NCBI RefSeq assembly: GCF_000735355.1
Contig: NZ_JMPI01000063.1
Location: forward strand, 62,001-126,000
DNA from: Buttiauxella agrestis ATCC 33320
Lineage (GTDB): Bacteria; Pseudomonadota; Gammaproteobacteria; Enterobacterales; Enterobacteriaceae
Length of the DNA: 64,000 bases
Direction of reading: 5' to 3'
Part shown: one piece after another, positions 16,560 through 51,484 of the stretch
Layout of the letters: the number at the start of each line of letters is the position of its first letter
How positions within the stretch are numbered: the first letter of the stretch is position 1
Notes under the pieces: model-generated
Databases searched by the model: none
Told to the model about the DNA's origin: nothing
The model's input: the letters and a program-made list of their open reading frames with translations, nothing else
Made by a program: the position numbers and the translations under genes

Positions 16560-16636
<77 letters not shown>

Positions 16637-16652
16637 TCCGAAAACGTGGCAA

Positions 16653-16681
16653 ATATTACGCCGATATTGCATAAAATGCAA
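16653..16681 (-). promoter_or_regulatory. Sigma-70 promoter of metY-rimP-nusA operon
   Basis: Minus strand: TTGCAT (16676-16681), a spacer of exactly 17 bp, and TAATAT (16653-16658), ending 16 bp before the metY 5' end. The placement is right for transcription beginning just upstream of the tRNA. Boxes and spacing are seen directly; activity is inferred. Confidence 0.7.
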
Positions 16682-16696
16682 GAAATGCAGATATTT

Positions 16697-16783
16697 TGGT
16701 ACCGAGGACGGGACTTGAACCCGTAAGCCCAATCGGGCACTACCACCTCAAGGTAGCGTGTCTACCAATTCCACCACCTCGGC
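16697..16783 (-). tRNA. leuU: tRNA-Leu (GAG)
   Basis: An 87-nt class II tRNA on the minus strand with acceptor GCCGAGG/CCTCGGT, a long variable arm (GTGCCCGATTGGGCTTAC) and encoded CCA. The anticodon GAG lies in the loop TTGAGGT. Position between secG and metY matches E. coli leuU, although only 60 bp separate it from metY here. Confidence 0.96.
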
Positions 16784-43252: not shown

Positions 43253-44107
43253 ATGGTGCTGATGATTGTCAGCGGCCGCTCTGGTTCAGGGAAGTCTGTA
43301 GCCTTGCGTGCACTAGAAGATATGGGATTCTACTGTGTAGATAACCTGCCAGTGGTGCTGTTGCCTGATCTTGCCAAAACTCTCGCAGAGCGACAGATTT
43401 CTGCGGCAGTCAGCATCGACGTGCGTAACATGCCGGAAAACCCGGAAATTTTTGAACAGGCGATGACCAATCTACCTGATTCATTTTCTCCACAATTGCT
43501 GTTCCTCGATGCCGATCGCAACACGCTGATTCGTCGTTATAGCGACACACGTCGTTTACACCCGCTTTCCAGTAAAAACTTGTCGCTGGAGAGTGCGATT
43601 GATGAAGAAAGCGATCTGCTGGAACCGTTGAAATCCAGAGCCGATTTAATCATCGACACCTCTGAAATGTCGGTGCATGAACTCGCGGAAATGCTGCGGA
43701 CTCGTCTGCTCGGCAAGCGTGAACGTGAATTGACGATGGTCTTCGAATCCTTCGGCTTTAAGCACGGCATTCCGATTGATGCAGATTACGTATTTGACGT
43801 GCGCTTCCTGCCAAACCCGCACTGGGATCCAAAACTGCGTCCAATGACGGGTCTCGACAGGCCTGTTGCAGCGTTCCTTGATCGTCATACCGAAGTACAC
43901 AACTTTATCTACCAGACGCGTAGCTATCTTGAGCTTTGGTTACCGATGCTGGAAACCAACAACCGCAGCTATTTGACTGTAGCGATTGGTTGTACTGGCG
44001 GTAAACACCGTTCGGTTTATATTGCAGAGCAGTTGGCAGACTATTTCCGCTCACGTGGGAAAAACGTGCAGTCCCGTCACCGTACGCTGGAAAAACGCAA
44101 ACCATGA
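43253..44107 (+). CDS. rapZ: RapZ, RNase adapter protein
   Basis: A 284-aa protein that binds sRNA GlmZ and hands it to RNase E, controlling glmS and so glucosamine-6-phosphate supply. Walker A is SGRSGSGKS near the N-terminus; the C-terminal domain with [17 protein letters not shown] binds RNA and metabolite. It overlaps npr by 4 nt. Confidence 0.98.
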
Positions 44108-44376
44108 CCGTAAAACAAACCGTTGAGATCACCAATAAGCTGGGCATGCATGCGCGCCCGGCTATGAAACTATTCGAACTTGTGCAAAGTTTTGATGCCG
44201 AAGTGATATTGCGTAACGAGGCTGGCACCGAAGCCGAAGCTAATAGTGTCATTGCACTACTGATGCTGGATTCAGCCAAAGGTGGCCACATTGAAATTGA
44301 AGTCACCGGGCCTGAAGAAGAACAAGCATTGAACGCTGTTATCGCGCTGTTCAATGCAGGTTTTGACGAAGATTAA
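44104..44376 (+). CDS. npr: NPr, nitrogen PTS phosphocarrier
   Basis: A 90-aa HPr-like protein; the phospho-acceptor is His16 in [12 protein letters not shown]. It carries phosphate from PtsP to PtsN. It is the last gene of the rpoN group; the sequence turns AT-rich directly after its stop, where the accessory region begins. Confidence 0.97.
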
Positions 44377-44690
44377 CTTATTACGTATTTTGATATTTAT
44401 CCTTAGAAATACTTAAATGTTTATACAGCCACGCTAATTAACACAATCAACTTATTATATTTAATAGGTTGATTGTCAGCCTCCTCCTTTAATTTTACAT
44501 ATAAAAACTATCAATCCTATAGTTTATATTCACCTCCCAAATACCCCGCAAATTAATCTTATTACAAACATATCTTATCGTTGCTTAAATTTAAAAGCCT
44601 ATCAATACTCAGCGCACCAATATACTTGCATCTATTTTTATTCCGATAAAAACGATGTATCAATGGTGTGATGATAAAAGGATTTATATT
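44377..44690 (+). other. AT-rich gap upstream of vgrG (left edge of accessory island)
   Basis: This 314-bp stretch contains no credible gene and is much richer in A and T than the flanking core genes. It has a hairpin CAATCAACTTATTA/TAATAGGTTGATTG (44444-44457 and 44462-44475, one mismatch), which might end npr transcripts, although no T-run follows directly. A weak promoter-like pair TTGCTT-17 bp-AATACT lies at 44581-44609. No tRNA, integrase or direct repeats are seen. Such composition usually attracts H-NS. Confidence 0.6.
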
Positions 44691-46712
44691 ATGGCCTCAG
44701 ACGGCACCCGCTTTACCTTCATCGCGGGGCGCACTCCTGCGGACACCTTCGCGGTGGTGGGCTTTAAATTAAAGCAGTCTCTCTCTTCCCTGTTCAGCCT
44801 GGAGATCACCGTCGCCTGCAATGACCCGGCGATTGGCTTTAAAGCTATTCTCGATGAATTCGCGCTGCTCACCATCTGGCAGGGCGATGTGATCAAGCGC
44901 CGGGTGCGCGGTATCGTCACCTTCTGCGAGCAGGGCGATTCCGGCAAACACCAGACGCTCTACCGCATGACGGTACGCCCCGAGTTCTGGCGCAGTTCAC
45001 AACGGCAGAACTGCCGCAGTTTTCAGAACTACGACATCCAGTACATCTTCGCAAAGCTGCTCAAAGAAATGCGTATCCGCACGCATGACGCCCTGTTGCG
45101 TCGTCCGCATCCGGCGCGGGAATTCTGCGTGCAGTTTATGGAATCGGATTACGATTTCATCGCCCGCCTCGCCGCCGAAGAAGGCATTTTTTTCTTCGAG
45201 GATGAATATCTCGATGACAGCGACCAGAAACTGACCTTCACCGATGACCGCTGCAACCTGCGCGGCCTCGGGGCTTTCCCGTACAACCCGAATGCCGCCT
45301 CGGAATCGTCCACCTACTGCATCAACACCTTTCGCCGCAGCGCGCAAATCCGCCCGGCAAAAGTCACCACAAAGGATTACACCTTCACCGCCCCCGGCTG
45401 GCAGGCGCAGTACCAGGAAGAAGGGGCAGACCTGTCTTATCAGCGTCCGGACTATGAAATTTTTGACTATCCGGGGCGTTTTAAGGATGAACAGCACGGT
45501 GCGGACTTTGCGAAATATCAGATGGACGGCTGGCGTAATAACGTCGATTTTGCCAGCGGCACCAGCAACTCCCCGCAGCTCCAGCCGGGGCGCTGGTTCA
45601 CCCTCACCGACCATCCGCGTGAGGATTTAAACAGCCCGTGGCAGGTGGTGTCGAGCGAAATTTCCGGCAACCAGCCGCAGGCGCAAATCGGCAGTTCAGG
45701 CCAGGGCACCACGCTCACCAACCGCTTTTATGTTATTCCGGCCACCCAGACCTGGCGCCCGACACCGTTGCCGAAACCGCTGGTGGACGGCCCGCAAATC
45801 GGCATTGTCACCGGTCCGGCCGGGGAAGAAATCTACTGCGACGAGCACGGACGTGTGACGGTGAAATTTGCCTGGGACCGCTATAACAAAAGCAACGAAG
45901 AAAGCTCGTGCTGGGTGCGCGTCTCCCAAGCGTGGGCAGGCACCGGCTTCGGCAACATCGCCATTCCGCGCGTCGGCCAGGAAGTGATTGTCGATTTCCT
46001 CAACGGCGACCCGGACCAGCCCATCATTACCGGGCGAACCTATCACGCCGCTAACCGCTCCCCGGGCGACCTGCCGGGGACTAAAACCCAGATGGCGATA
46101 CGCTCGCAGACGTATAAGGGTAATGGCTACAACGAATTAATGTTTGACGACCAGACCGGCCAGGAACTGCTGTCGATGCATGCCCAGAAGGACATGAGTC
46201 GGATAGTCAATAATCGAGATGCTTTCTGGGTAGGTGAAAATCAGCTGATGCATATCAAAGGCGAAAATCATTTACGAGTTGAAAGCGAAAAACGTGATTT
46301 AGTTAAAGAAGATTACTCACTCACTGTTTCACAGACTCTTCATATTAAAACTGAAGAAAATATGCTGATAGTAAATGGCAGTGAATATCACGTCAAAGCA
46401 GGCAGTAAAGTCACACTTGATGCAGGATGCGAGTTAACACTACAAGCCGGTGGTAACTTTATAAAAATTGACGCCAGCGGCATCCAAACCAGTGCAATTG
46501 TAAATATGGGGATGGGTTCTCCGGGTAAGGGTACTGAATGGAATGGGCAACTCCCGGATGAACTCACGCCTTCTCAGGGAAAATTAACATTGGGAAAAAA
46601 TAAGGCCGAATCGTCTGATATGACGGTTCGGCCTGAACTCGAAGAAGATATATGCCTGGAATGCATGATGAATTCAATGCGTGAAGATTCGGCAATAGTG
46701 GGTGGAAACTAA
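44691..46712 (+). CDS. vgrG: VgrG, type VI secretion spike protein
   Basis: A 673-aa tip protein of the T6SS tail. The N-terminal two-thirds is the gp27-like region; the gp5-like OB fold follows around 365-470 (GPAGEEIYCDEHGRVTVKFAWD, then QAWAGTGFGNIAIPRVGQEV), and a short beta-helix region with repeated polar segments ends the protein (residues about 500-640). The ATG at 44691 has AAAAGGA before it and gives MASDGTRFTFIAG. There is no large C-terminal toxin domain; the tail ICLECMMNSMRED is probably the adaptor-docking end. Base use changes sharply near 46,196 (codon about 502) from GC-rich to AT-rich. It has no T6SS structural genes beside it. Confidence 0.95.
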   Translation: MASDGTRFTFIAGRTPADTFAVVGFKLKQSLSSLFSLEITVACNDPAIGFKAILDEFALLTIWQGDVIKRRVRGIVTFCEQGDSGKHQTLYRMTVRPEFWRSSQRQNCRSFQNYDIQYIFAKLLKEMRIRTHDALLRRPHPAREFCVQFMESDYDFIARLAAEEGIFFFEDEYLDDSDQKLTFTDDRCNLRGLGAFPYNPNAASESSTYCINTFRRSAQIRPAKVTTKDYTFTAPGWQAQYQEEGADLSYQRPDYEIFDYPGRFKDEQHGADFAKYQMDGWRNNVDFASGTSNSPQLQPGRWFTLTDHPREDLNSPWQVVSSEISGNQPQAQIGSSGQGTTLTNRFYVIPATQTWRPTPLPKPLVDGPQIGIVTGPAGEEIYCDEHGRVTVKFAWDRYNKSNEESSCWVRVSQAWAGTGFGNIAIPRVGQEVIVDFLNGDPDQPIITGRTYHAANRSPGDLPGTKTQMAIRSQTYKGNGYNELMFDDQTGQELLSMHAQKDMSRIVNNRDAFWVGENQLMHIKGENHLRVESEKRDLVKEDYSLTVSQTLHIKTEENMLIVNGSEYHVKAGSKVTLDAGCELTLQAGGNFIKIDASGIQTSAIVNMGMGSPGKGTEWNGQLPDELTPSQGKLTLGKNKAESSDMTVRPELEEDICLECMMNSMREDSAIVGGN

Positions 46713-46716
46713 CATA

Positions 46717-47550
46717 ATGATACTGTCTGAATTACTCATTGTCAGCCATATGGCTAAAGAGGCTACTGCTTCATCGTATGCATTATTTGAAGCTGGATTA
46801 GTTGAAAATAAAGTGCTGCGAGAAATATGCGCATCTGCGAGTGACCGAATGAGATCTCTCTTTATTCACCCACAACTTGAATCATTAGTGTCCGTTGGTC
46901 CATGGCTTATAAAGATTACTGACCTGAATGACACTATTCCAGACGTTCTGGATAAACAAGGTGCGCTGAGAGGGATCATCATTTCCAGCCTTGCGTTACC
47001 ACAACTGGCAGAGCAATTATCCTGGGGATGTATCGTAAAATCTCCTGATGATAAAGGTCTGTTGTTGCGATTCTATACGCCTTATGTATTACAGCATTTA
47101 TCGCAACGTAACGATTTAAATGGATATTCGGCTCTTTTTAACGGGATCGATAAATGGTTTGTTCCCAATATGGATCAACAATGGTGGCCATTATCTTTAA
47201 CACCAGCTTTAAACACCGAATATGATAAGACCCACAAAACCATTGAACTCGATCAAGCTCTTTGGGAATTATTAAACGGTGACACCGACGTCAGCGCCTT
47301 GTTAAGAATCTGGATACAACAACCACAGAGTAAACATTTCCCAGCATGTATTCAGCGTGCAATGGTTCATAAGGCGCTCAATAAAGCTCAACAAGCGGGG
47401 TTATCACGACCCATTGATAAAAAAATATACGCCCTGCATTACTTGAGCGGCGGAAATAAAGAAATTCAATCATCTGATATGACTCGAGCACTCGAAAAAG
47501 TTACAGCGGGAAATATCACTCTCACCGAAGCACTGCTTCAGGAGACTTAA
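46717..47550 (+). CDS. DUF4123-type T6SS adaptor/chaperone
   Basis: A 277-aa protein lying 4 bp after vgrG. Its architecture (PWLIKITDLNDTIPDVL, then GCIVKSPDDKGLLLRFYTPYVLQ with FNGIDKWFVPN) is that of DUF4123 adaptors (Tap/Tec), which load a specific effector on its cognate VgrG. The ATG at 46717 has a GGTGGA 10 nt upstream; a GTG at 46702 inside vgrG is in frame but less likely. Position between vgrG and cargo genes supports the role. The family call is by pattern, not by a search. Confidence 0.8.
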   Translation: MILSELLIVSHMAKEATASSYALFEAGLVENKVLREICASASDRMRSLFIHPQLESLVSVGPWLIKITDLNDTIPDVLDKQGALRGIIISSLALPQLAEQLSWGCIVKSPDDKGLLLRFYTPYVLQHLSQRNDLNGYSALFNGIDKWFVPNMDQQWWPLSLTPALNTEYDKTHKTIELDQALWELLNGDTDVSALLRIWIQQPQSKHFPACIQRAMVHKALNKAQQAGLSRPIDKKIYALHYLSGGNKEIQSSDMTRALEKVTAGNITLTEALLQET

Positions 47551-47552
47551 CT

Positions 47553-48056
47553 ATGAGTCTACTTTCTCGACTGGAAAAAATAGATGCTTCATTAAATCGT
47601 TTCTGGGCTCGCTGGAGTCGCTGGTTACGCAGAGGGTTAATTCTTCTGGTTGTCATCTGGGGGGGTAATCTTGCCTGGGCGGTATTTTTTGGTCCACCGA
47701 CTGGAGGTGTTGCACTGATCATTCATAGTGAGATAGATCGTCCTATTCTTGGTTTTAGCGTTAATGGTGTCGCGGGGGGAAATGCTTTTGCACATGGGGG
47801 AGGTGCTCTTACATGCTGCGGAACAATTGAAGGTGATACTGCTGAAGTTATATGGACACTGGATATAACTCATTCTCAATATTTACAAGGAATGCGACTG
47901 GAAAAACGCCTTAAAACTCTGCCATTGCCGGAAAGAAAATGGGGAGAAGACAATTTGCATGTTCATTTCCTGCCAAATGATCAGGTCAAACTGGGGTGGA
48001 GTCGTGATGCATGGTCACCCTTTGAAATACGGCCCGAAATAAAGACTAAGAAATAA
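47553..48056 (+). CDS. DUF3304-like membrane protein, copy 1
   Basis: A 167-aa protein starting 2 bp after the adaptor stop. Residues about 28-46 form one transmembrane helix after a basic N-terminus (RWSRWLRRG), so the rest should be periplasmic. The body has IDRPILGFSVNGVAGGNAFAHGGGALTCCG, resembling DUF3304 proteins found in T6SS effector loci. Copy 2 follows 35 bp later and is nearly identical from residue 48 on, except for a short segment around 110-127 (THSQYLQGMRLEKRL here). Immunity or membrane-anchored accessory function is inferred, not shown. Confidence 0.75.
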   Translation: MSLLSRLEKIDASLNRFWARWSRWLRRGLILLVVIWGGNLAWAVFFGPPTGGVALIIHSEIDRPILGFSVNGVAGGNAFAHGGGALTCCGTIEGDTAEVIWTLDITHSQYLQGMRLEKRLKTLPLPERKWGEDNLHVHFLPNDQVKLGWSRDAWSPFEIRPEIKTKK

Positions 48057-48091
48057 ATAAAGGACAGAGTGATATTAAGGATCTCAAAAAT

Positions 48092-48610
48092 ATGAATTTA
48101 CTTTCCCGACTAGAAAAAATAGATGCGGCGCTGCATCGCTTTTGGGCACGCTGGAGCCGCTGGATGTGCAGAGGGTTAATTCTACTGATAATAATCTGGG
48201 GTCTGAACCTTGCCTGGGATGTCTTTTTTGGGCCACCGACTGGAGGTGTTGCACTGATCATTCATAGTGAGATAGATCGTCCTATTCTTGGTTTTAGCGT
48301 TAATGGTGTCGCGGGTGGAAATGCTTTTGCACATGGGGGAGGTGCTCTTACATGCTGCGGAACAATTGAAGGGGATACAGCTGAAGTTATATGGACACTA
48401 AGTACTACACGCACACAATATGATGCTGGTTTGCGTAAAGAAACCCGCCACAAAACTCTGCCATTGCCAGAAAGAAAATGGGGGGAAGACAATTTGCATG
48501 TTCATTTCCTGCCAAATAATCAGGTCAAACTGGGGTGGAGTAGTGATGCGTGGTCACCCTTTGAAAAGCGGCCAGAAAACAGGAATAAAAAAGGGAATAA
48601 TACTAAATGA
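48092..48610 (+). CDS. DUF3304-like membrane protein, copy 2
   Basis: A 172-aa paralogue of the preceding gene. The N-terminal 47 residues, including the transmembrane helix, differ at many positions, the central block (DNA 48233-48399) matches copy 1 at all but about three bases, and the segment around residues 108-125 (TTRTQYDAGLRKETRH) is different, followed by another nearly identical block up to the C-terminus. This pattern suggests duplication with gene conversion and diversification of one surface. It ends in an ATGA overlap with the large cargo gene, so the two are probably translated together. Confidence 0.75.
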   Translation: MNLLSRLEKIDAALHRFWARWSRWMCRGLILLIIIWGLNLAWDVFFGPPTGGVALIIHSEIDRPILGFSVNGVAGGNAFAHGGGALTCCGTIEGDTAEVIWTLSTTRTQYDAGLRKETRHKTLPLPERKWGEDNLHVHFLPNNQVKLGWSSDAWSPFEKRPENRNKKGNNTK

Positions 48611-50445
48611 ACAAGGAACAAATGATTGCGAGTGCCAACCGGGCGCAACAGAATGAAGATAGCCATTCAAACTCTTGTGGCCGTACCTGGCACCTGGGGT
48701 TATTTTTTGATGGTGTGGAACGTAATATTGAACAAGATGCAATAGAACATCGACTCAGTAATGTTGCACGTCTTTTTCGGGCATACCCGGATAGCAGCTC
48801 AAATACGAACAATTCCTGCTTTGATAAATTTTATTTTTCAGGTCTGGGTACTCCTTTCAAAGAGGAACTTTCTGCAAAACTACATGCAGCAATGGATGTT
48901 AGTATTGATAAATTTATTGATGAAGTTAAAAGCATTCCAAAAGATGCTATTGAGGACTCAGCCAAAGAAGTATTAAGCAAATCCTGGTATGAAATCCTGG
49001 ATAATCAATTTAAGAAACTTTGTAACCCTTTCGAATGGAAAAAGGTCACTACCGCTGCAATGGGTAAGATCATGACTAAAGTTAGCATTGAGTCAACACC
49101 ATGGTTACGAGATAGCAAAATTATGTCAACTATGTTTCTAACAGGTGTTGACACCAGAGTTTCATCAGCGAAAACTCGTTTTGAAAATTTCTTTAAAAAA
49201 ATCAACAGTAATAGCGCACTCCCTATAAAAAACATTTCCATTTCCATTTTTGGTTTTGATCTTGGTGCTACCCTCGCGCGAAAATTCATCGATGATCTAC
49301 TTAAAGATATTTGCCAAAAAGAAGTGACAAAAGATGTACCAGTAAAATATTTATATAACAAAGTTCCAGTAGATATAATATTTGCTGGTTTTTTTGATTG
49401 CTCACGCCATAGCCCTGCTAGTAGCAATAATGGGTTGGATTATTATGTCGCTTTGCTGGGTACTCCAGGAAAAAGCGTAAGTCTTTTTATGGGAGATAAA
49501 TCTATCGACCAGGATACTCCCTTACCTTCGATGGTGCGCAATGCTCTACATTTGGTTGCTGCGCATGAGCGTCGCCCATGGCGTGGAATCTATTCTTTGG
49601 GTAAGGGGAACTGGCAAGAAATATTGCTACCCGGAAGTAGTGAAGATATTGGTGGCGGATTACTGCCTGATGAACAAAAACCCAGTGCTGAATTATGCAG
49701 GGTGGCCCTGCATCAAATGTACCGTACCGCATATATGGCTGGCGTACCTTTCCCTGATTATCAAACTTTGCCCGAGCTATCAGCGACGGTTGCAAATTAT
49801 TTTTATATGAACGACACCATTGAAGGCCGTTCGGCACAATACTGGGCAAAACGCTATCAGTCTATCATCGGCTACCAAACACTCAGTACTCATGCCCAAA
49901 ATGCTCATCTTGACAGCTATTTTAACTGGCTTAGTCAACAGTACTATTTGTATTGCACAGAGCTGCAAAGAATAGATGCGGAAAAAGCAGACATTATGAG
50001 CACCATAACATTATCGACAGAAGACCCCGAATTACGGAAAAAAATAGCAGACAATCATCTTGCCAGAGAAACGCTGAAAAACAATTGGGGTTGGCTGGAT
50101 GATGTTAAAGATCAGGCGCGCTGGTTTATTAATAGTGTGATGACAAACCCTAATGAGACACGAATGCGAGTGGCCCCAAAGATTTATATTCCTGCATTCA
50201 GGCGGGCAAAAAAATTTCTGGAATACAGCGTTTGTGCTTATCAGCAAAAACCTATGCCTGCCTCAACAGATAACGCCCCAGAGGAAATTTTTACTTGGCT
50301 GGTTCACGATATTCAAAAAGTTGATCCGGCCTCCTCAATTAGTGTGGATTTCCTGGCTATTCGCTCATTCGAAGTACCTGAAGCAGAAGAAGACGAACCA
50401 GAAGCCGAGTCTCCAGCTGAAAACTCAACACCCGCCAATGCCTAA
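48607..50445 (+). CDS. Tle1/DUF2235-like T6SS cargo protein
   Basis: A 612-aa protein with DUF2235 (Tle1 phospholipase-like) features: an N-terminal WHLGLFFDGVERN segment, a nucleophile-elbow-like ISIFGFDLGATLARKF, then HERRPWRGIYS, PGSSEDIGGGL (Asp347) and, near the C-terminus, TWLVHDIQK (His567). The elbow in active Tle1 enzymes is GFSRG; here Asp218 replaces Ser (codon GAT at 49258). The family motif G-H-S-D-x-GGG also lacks its His. It may be an altered hydrolase, a non-catalytic carrier or a pore-type toxin. The tail is Glu/Pro-rich. It overlaps the previous gene and precedes PAAR by 22 bp. No signal peptide. Confidence 0.78.
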   Translation: MNKEQMIASANRAQQNEDSHSNSCGRTWHLGLFFDGVERNIEQDAIEHRLSNVARLFRAYPDSSSNTNNSCFDKFYFSGLGTPFKEELSAKLHAAMDVSIDKFIDEVKSIPKDAIEDSAKEVLSKSWYEILDNQFKKLCNPFEWKKVTTAAMGKIMTKVSIESTPWLRDSKIMSTMFLTGVDTRVSSAKTRFENFFKKINSNSALPIKNISISIFGFDLGATLARKFIDDLLKDICQKEVTKDVPVKYLYNKVPVDIIFAGFFDCSRHSPASSNNGLDYYVALLGTPGKSVSLFMGDKSIDQDTPLPSMVRNALHLVAAHERRPWRGIYSLGKGNWQEILLPGSSEDIGGGLLPDEQKPSAELCRVALHQMYRTAYMAGVPFPDYQTLPELSATVANYFYMNDTIEGRSAQYWAKRYQSIIGYQTLSTHAQNAHLDSYFNWLSQQYYLYCTELQRIDAEKADIMSTITLSTEDPELRKKIADNHLARETLKNNWGWLDDVKDQARWFINSVMTNPNETRMRVAPKIYIPAFRRAKKFLEYSVCAYQQKPMPASTDNAPEEIFTWLVHDIQKVDPASSISVDFLAIRSFEVPEAEEDEPEAESPAENSTPANA

Positions 50446-50467
50446 GAAAATAATTCAGGAATAAACA

Positions 50468-50746
50468 ATGAGAGCAATGATGACTCAAACCTGCCCAACA
50501 ACAACGGGCGGGAAAATACTTGAAGGTGTTCCGACGATCACCATCGCAGGATTACCGGTTGCACTGATCGGAATGAAAGCTTCCTGCCAGGTTTGTAAAG
50601 GAGTCGGGGCAATCACCCCCTTGGGTCCGCATCTGCAGACATTCAACGATATCCCCGTAGCTCTTCAGGGGGATATCGTTACTTGTGCTTGTCCTAAAGG
50701 GAGTAATACTCTTTTGCCACTGGTGCCAACGGTAACGGTTTTATAG
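50468..50746 (+). CDS. PAAR-domain T6SS tip protein
   Basis: A 92-aa protein starting MRAMMTQTCPTTTGGKILEG and containing repeated short glycine and proline turns (GVPTITIAGLPVALIG; LGPHLQTFNDIPVALQGD) with paired cysteines (CQVC, CAC), as in small PAAR/PAAR-like proteins that sharpen the VgrG spike. AGGA lies 8 nt before the ATG. It is the last gene of the accessory run and ends 9 bp before the convergent mtgA stop. Confidence 0.82.
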   Translation: MRAMMTQTCPTTTGGKILEGVPTITIAGLPVALIGMKASCQVCKGVGAITPLGPHLQTFNDIPVALQGDIVTCACPKGSNTLLPLVPTVTVL

Positions 50747-50755
50747 TTGTCTAAC

Positions 50756-51484
50756 TCACTTCAATTCATGCTGCGCCATAAACGATTCGCCACCTAGCTG
50801 GCGCATCTGGCGCAAAATCCATTGCTGGCGCTGCCGAACATAACCTGAAGGTGCATTCGCTTTAAAGCGAATGGGATTAGGTAATACTGCGGCAAGCAAA
50901 GCAGCTTCCGAGGCCGTCAGGCGACTTGCTGGTTTATGGAAGTAACGCTGCGAAGCTTCTTCCACGCCAAAAATTCCGTCACCAAATTCTGCGATATTCA
51001 GATACACCGTGAGAATGCGGCGTTTCGTCCACACCACTTCCATACCGAGCGTTATTCCCGCCTCCAGGCCTTTGCGAACATAGCTCCGTCCATCCCATAA
51101 AAACAAGTTTTTCGCCGTTTGCTGGGAAAGCGTTGACGCACCGCGAACGCGATTTTCATTGCGTTCATTGTGTGCAATGGCTTTTTCAATCGCGGAAACA
51201 TCAAACCCCCAATGGTCCGGGAATTTCTGATCTTCTGCCGCAATAACTGCAAGCCCCATCCACGGTGAGATTTCGTCCATGCTGACCCAATCTGAATGCG
51301 CCACGTAACCAAAATCACCTGAGAACCAGGCGCTGAATTGCCGTTCGACCATGACTGCCGAAAACGGTACCGGCATAAAGCTGAACAGGATTATCCCTAC
51401 CAACCAAACTCCCACCAGCGCCAGCGCAAAGCGTAATAGCCAACGCTTGAGGGTGGATAAGAGCGCAACACGCCCTTTCTTCAT
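50756..51484 (-). CDS. mtgA: Monofunctional peptidoglycan glycosyltransferase
   Basis: A 242-aa family GT51 enzyme polymerising glycan strands from lipid II. One N-terminal membrane helix (residues about 13-33) precedes the catalytic domain. Motif 1 with the catalytic Glu is [14 protein letters not shown], motif 2 [15 protein letters not shown], and motif 3 [15 protein letters not shown]. Its start overlaps elbB by 4 nt. Its 3' end abuts the accessory module with no terminator visible between. Confidence 0.97.

Follow-up and report, generated by a model that had tools for sequence, protein, structure and literature searches.

In the portions of the published descriptions available to us, the closest described system to the one treated here is the Aux 5 cluster of Vibrio cholerae (PMC6691524). 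This type VI secretion system (T6SS) cluster holds hcp, vgrG, tap, two DUF3304 genes and the gene for an effector, TleV1, that carries a GXDLG motif and no GXSXG. TleV1 is toxic in Escherichia coli, more so in the periplasm, its killing depends on the T6SS, and one of the two DUF3304 proteins was protective (the TleV1/TliV1 pair). Another such system is the vgrG4a-tla1-tli1b-tli1a-tle1 island of Pseudomonas aeruginosa (PMC13133936), and islands of orphan hcp, vgrG and PAAR genes located away from a T6SS core have also been reported (PMC13098142; see also PMC3235180 and PMC10671463). We describe here a cassette from Buttiauxella agrestis ATCC 33320 that lies between npr and mtgA in a stretch of 64,000 nucleotides (contig NZ_JMPI01000063.1, positions 62,001 to 126,000 of the forward strand; this whole stretch is referred to as the window). 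Cassettes of this type are known; what is of interest is that its effector belongs to a clade that has the Tle1 fold and the usual partners and yet two of the three catalytic residues are gone.

The npr gene ends at 44376 and the stop of mtgA, on the minus strand, starts at 50756, so that the interval between them is exactly 44377-50755. Six open reading frames (ORFs), all on the plus strand, fill it and are listed here with the two border genes:

44104..44376, plus strand: npr, left border of the insertion site
44691..46712, plus strand: vgrG (TssI), spike; identified by Pfam, NCBIfam and comparison with paralogues; frame open from 44655
46717..47550, plus strand: DUF4123 effector adaptor of the Tap/Tla1 type; PF13503, 59.9 bits (cut-off 25.8), and recurring gene order; possible GTG start at 46702
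47553..48056, plus strand: DUF3304 immunity-like protein 1; Pfam (PF11745, 27.0 bits, cut-off 22) and NCBIfam; one hydrophobic segment, residues 29-47
48092..48610, plus strand: DUF3304 immunity-like protein 2, a tandem copy of protein 1; Pfam (PF11745, 28.1 bits) and NCBIfam
48607..50445, plus strand: TleV-type effector; Tle1 fold, GxDxG for GxSxG and Ser for the catalytic His
50468..50746, plus strand: PAAR spike-tip protein; PF05488, 52.9 bits (cut-off 27)
50756..51484, minus strand: mtgA, right border of the insertion site

The original prediction read these genes as an effector delivery set consisting of a spike, a loader, an immunity-like pair, a cargo and a tip. This reading agrees with the profile searches, in which all five products other than VgrG score above their Pfam cut-offs, with the gene order and with the recurrence of that order elsewhere. 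VgrG itself matches PF05954 (E 1.1e-73), PF22178 and PF04717 in Pfam and TIGR03361 (590.3 bits) in NCBIfam. With a VgrG that has the gp27/gp5 domains and with linked adaptor, effector, immunity and PAAR genes, the insert between npr and mtgA is a T6SS cargo cassette, a known kind of module. The adaptor and the Tle1-like protein have no NCBIfam match, and the two DUF3304 proteins score 29.7 and 29.6 bits for the Tli1a family (NF053804), below its cut-off of 110. The single hydrophobic segment in each DUF3304 protein, which begins at residue 29, would put the DUF3304 domain in the periplasm.

The cassette resembles Aux 5 in that vgrG, a tap adaptor gene and two DUF3304 genes lie 5' of the gene for a DUF2235/Tle1-like effector with GXDLG. 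However, Aux 5 contains hcp and its strains have a T6SS, whereas the cassette in the window has no hcp and a core is unseen in this genome. Likewise, no ORF follows directly after the effector gene of Aux 5, whereas a PAAR gene occupies that place here. Because there is no hcp between npr and mtgA, the module falls outside the Aux 5 clusters and is just a cassette whose effector is of the same kind. As for the surroundings of Aux 5a, the available part of its description reports no phage or integrase gene nearby (PMC6691524). The P. aeruginosa island shares with the cassette a spike, a DUF4123 adaptor, two DUF3304 genes and an effector with the Tle1 fold, in the same order. However, the P. aeruginosa Tle1 relies on a Ser-Asp-His triad, of which the Ser and the His are missing from the effector in the window, and its Tli1a is an outer membrane lipoprotein (PMC13133936), whereas the DUF3304 proteins described here have the hydrophobic segment.

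The predicted structure of the effector is still a Tle1 fold, and the Tle1-like catalytic domain scores 30.6 bits in Pfam (cut-off 27). Residues 216-220 read GFDLG where Tle1 has GxSxG, with Asp218 exactly at the place of the Ser, and the His motif of Tle1, HSDxGGG, reads SED, the His being replaced by Ser. Relatives of the effector were found with an alignment as the query against genome contigs; a single protein as the query gave none. Among these relatives, Asp stands for the catalytic Ser in 55 of the 56 loci covering the position, and Ser or Ala stands for the catalytic His in 57 of the 58 covering loci. The clade is present in at least the Enterobacterales, Aeromonas, Halomonadaceae, Pseudomonas and Marinobacter, and it appears from the alignment to be a broadly distributed branch, with two of the three catalytic residues replaced, of a known family of lipases. 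One related effector (L111) is filed under a Candidatus Paceibacterota bin and is probably on a contaminating contig. The earlier label of a Tle1/DUF2235-like protein holds for the fold and the Pfam domain, but the effector should not yet be called a Tle1 phospholipase, because the Ser and the His of the triad are gone. The available part of the TleV1 description contains no mention of a replaced catalytic His (PMC6691524), and a literature search, with subscription papers mostly outside it, found no wider survey of the TleV-type group.

Several explanations could be offered for this pattern. The Tle1 fold and the Asp placed exactly at the Ser site of GxSxG would suit an effector that has remained a Tle1-type phospholipase and uses Asp as its nucleophile, and Asp nucleophiles occur in other alpha/beta hydrolases. 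However, the catalytic His is also replaced in nearly all of the clade, and those Asp-nucleophile enzymes of this fold that are known retain a His; we consider this explanation improbable. If the alignment is right, the replacement of both residues across the clade excludes the triad chemistry. The same replacement would be expected of a pseudoenzyme that damages membranes by attaching to them or inserting into them; its old active site would then persist for the sake of folding or of contact with the immunity protein. Against this, 20 of the 47 invariant columns in a 45-sequence alignment fall in five segments round the old active site (about 44 of the 612 residues), a figure that is inflated because two of the five segments doubled as search patterns. 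We consider a pseudoenzyme possible but less likely than not. We would also suggest, tentatively, that the clade consists of re-tooled Tle1 antibacterial effectors in which the fold and the pocket residues are kept and the triad has given way to an acid-rich site of Asp218, Asp264 and Asp347 (His320 is invariant among the loci found); this site would serve some other chemistry, perhaps a metal-dependent one.

The partners of the effector recur with it. Among the 61 loci examined, a DUF3304 gene is near the effector gene in 56, a DUF4123 gene in 47, vgrG in 43 and a gene labelled PAAR in 4; these labels come from iterated profiles seeded by this module, and several of the loci are cut by contig ends. 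Where DUF3304 genes are seen, there are one to five copies per locus.

The module has rapZ-npr on one side and mtgA-elbB on the other, so it does not lie within a T6SS core cluster. The order of these flanking genes is as in E. coli K-12, in which yrbL sits between npr and mtgA, and the only tRNAs that ARAGORN finds in the window are at 16560-16783. The six genes in one direction, yrbL in K-12 and the absence of flanking tRNA and core genes are all as the original prediction had them. (Names of flanking genes are a reading of their translations, except for those assigned by NCBIfam or derived from K-12.) The genus was sampled with 12 genomes, including this one (G000), and in all 12 mtgA was found and the npr side could be read. 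Two of them, G000 and G004, have the cargo cassette at npr-mtgA, G004 being the sole one of the 11 congeners with the same gene set there, and in eight the two stops are 1-5 bases apart. Of the remaining two, G008 has a 143-base element with inverted ends (L068 14337-14479) and G011 has 3,832 bases (L076 1649-5480), which we interpret as genes for a regulator, a transporter and a glycerate-kinase-like protein, with no T6SS genes. Because the contents differ in this way among the 12 genomes, the junction of the convergent genes npr and mtgA is one that accepts unrelated inserts, and the variable content that the original prediction proposed to look for at this site was found.

Outside the genus, the npr-mtgA stretch had no megablast match in E. 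coli genomes, and npr or mtgA was beside the related effector in none of 59 named loci in the stretch examined, several of which are cut by contig ends. Phages gave no match. Plasmids gave 25 records, none of which reached 60% identity or covered 80% of the query, and a megablast search of plasmids with the vgrG core found none. Therefore, no near kin of the module was found on a mobile element.

The history of the module can be judged in part from a comparison with G004. In the flanking genes (rapZ, npr, mtgA and elbB) 41-60% of the synonymous sites differ between the two genomes, and in the module genes, leaving aside the vgrG core, 68-80% differ, with a pN of 0.10-0.28. Because its synonymous divergence exceeds that of the flanks, the module is older than the genes around it or of more foreign origin, as would suit a separate acquisition or replacement at one site. 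The module has also been under purifying selection. The vgrG core behaves differently. Its pS is 0.24 to the treC-nrdD vgrG of the same genome and 0.28 to another vgrG of this genome, located beside a GntR-type regulator and mngAB-like genes, but 0.50 to its G004 counterpart, which is thus farther away than the paralogues. Beyond about residue 524, the ends of the VgrG paralogues match poorly, and the C-terminal part is specific to this cassette. Gene conversion of the vgrG core, combined with a swap of the cargo-binding end, would account for this pattern. The vgrG core has a GC content of 0.55-0.61, and the remainder of the module is lower, at 0.35-0.48. The two DUF3304 genes are tandem copies with a pS of 0.34.

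Some smaller features of the locus can be added. The ATG at 44691 is a likelier start for vgrG than 44655, because the paralogues begin MASDGTRF. The gaps between genes from the adaptor onward are 2, 35, -4 and 22 bases, and the PAAR gene ends 9 bases before the mtgA stop. In scans for promoters and terminators the counts lay no more than about 1.5 sd from the shuffled mean, and we made no use of them. A defence system was also considered and dropped, as PADLOC models matched none of four module proteins.

The cassette is not the only T6SS cargo in this genome. We count 13 cargo loci, five with vgrG (three intact and two broken or truncated) and eight with hcp. Each hcp gene is followed by an ORF of effector-like size, and the seven ORFs that were scanned comprise two Tlde1, three DUF4225 and two with no match. 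Like the orphan islands mentioned above, these cargo genes are away from a core; the difference is that here there are 13 loci and no core in the searched sequence. TssC (PF05943), TssM (PF06761) and TssK (PF05936) have 0 matches in the searched contigs of this genome, whereas 10 of the 12 genomes sampled from the genus contain TssC. TssM and TssK were looked for in this genome only; run against the 14 genomes of a control panel, each of these searches matched in one.

The missing core, together with the two damaged vgrG loci, might indicate that the lineage lost its T6SS core and that the cassettes are relics or are retained solely for the immunity genes in them. We find this doubtful, because three vgrG genes and seven of the eight hcp genes have open frames of the usual length, and because G011, the other genome without TssC, also has no vgrG match at E 1e-20 and so shows what a clean loss would look like. 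Moreover, in G003 and G005 the core cluster adjoins hydantoin racemase and allantoinase-like genes (in G005 it follows dnaQ and tRNA-Asp), and in this genome the contig with dnaQ ends 23 bases past tRNA-Asp, while the contig with the other flank starts at the far border. The interval at the expected core site is unseen because contigs end at both of its borders. For this reason the missing TssC, TssM and TssK are no proof of T6SS loss, and the presence of a core in sequence outside the searched contigs, one small contig of the genome being given only as N, is at least as likely as its loss.

Individual cargo loci have features of their own. Among the scattered hcp genes (L192-L199), L198 has no usual start codon at the expected place, and the hcp cassette at L199 2273-3825 (contig C31) lies on the opposite strand between fliI- and fliJ-like genes, so that a flagellar operon is interrupted; in G010 the two genes are about a dozen bases apart. 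The vgrG cassette at treC-nrdD (L007 8364-11976) has a cargo predicted to be an M35-type zinc peptidase (PF14521), and is followed by a likely immunity gene. Among the allantoin genes (L011 8873-14481), a vgrG is truncated to about 130 residues; next come a Tle3 effector that has a PAAR-like domain and several similar lipoprotein-like genes. Sister vgrG cassettes occupy the same places in other genomes: treC-nrdD has one in G004 and one in G005, split over contig ends, and G005 also has them at the mngAB-like site and at mak-sbcC, the latter again split over contig ends.

Taken together, we consider it probable that the npr/mtgA junction holds a self-contained T6SS cargo cassette with a TleV-type effector. 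VgrG and PAAR would form the spike and its tip, and the DUF4123 protein would load the effector, with its Tle1 fold, onto the C-terminal part of VgrG that is specific to this cassette. Presumably a T6SS of the class that has its core next to the tRNA-Asp gene in sister species would fire the spike. The effector would then kill from the periplasm without use of the Ser-Asp-His triad of Tle1, and the membrane-anchored DUF3304 proteins would shield the producer from effector in its own periplasm. Some observations weigh against this scheme. The Tle1-like Pfam score is barely above its cut-off, the three core proteins are without a match in the searched contigs, the module itself has no hcp, and the effector was likened to TleV1 by description (motif and gene order), not by direct sequence comparison. 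Also, one or both of the DUF3304 genes may be non-working as immunity genes, because only one of the two DUF3304 proteins protected in V. cholerae (PMC6691524).

In conclusion, fold and domain score are what place Tle1 effectors among the phospholipases, and a large branch of them is without the catalytic Ser and His. Because this branch has nevertheless kept its immunity genes, adaptor and spike, and because TleV1, which has the same motif, is reported to kill, annotation by domain may misstate its chemistry. The B. agrestis genome, for its part, could be used to ask whether cargo cassettes persist after loss of the secretion system that fires them.
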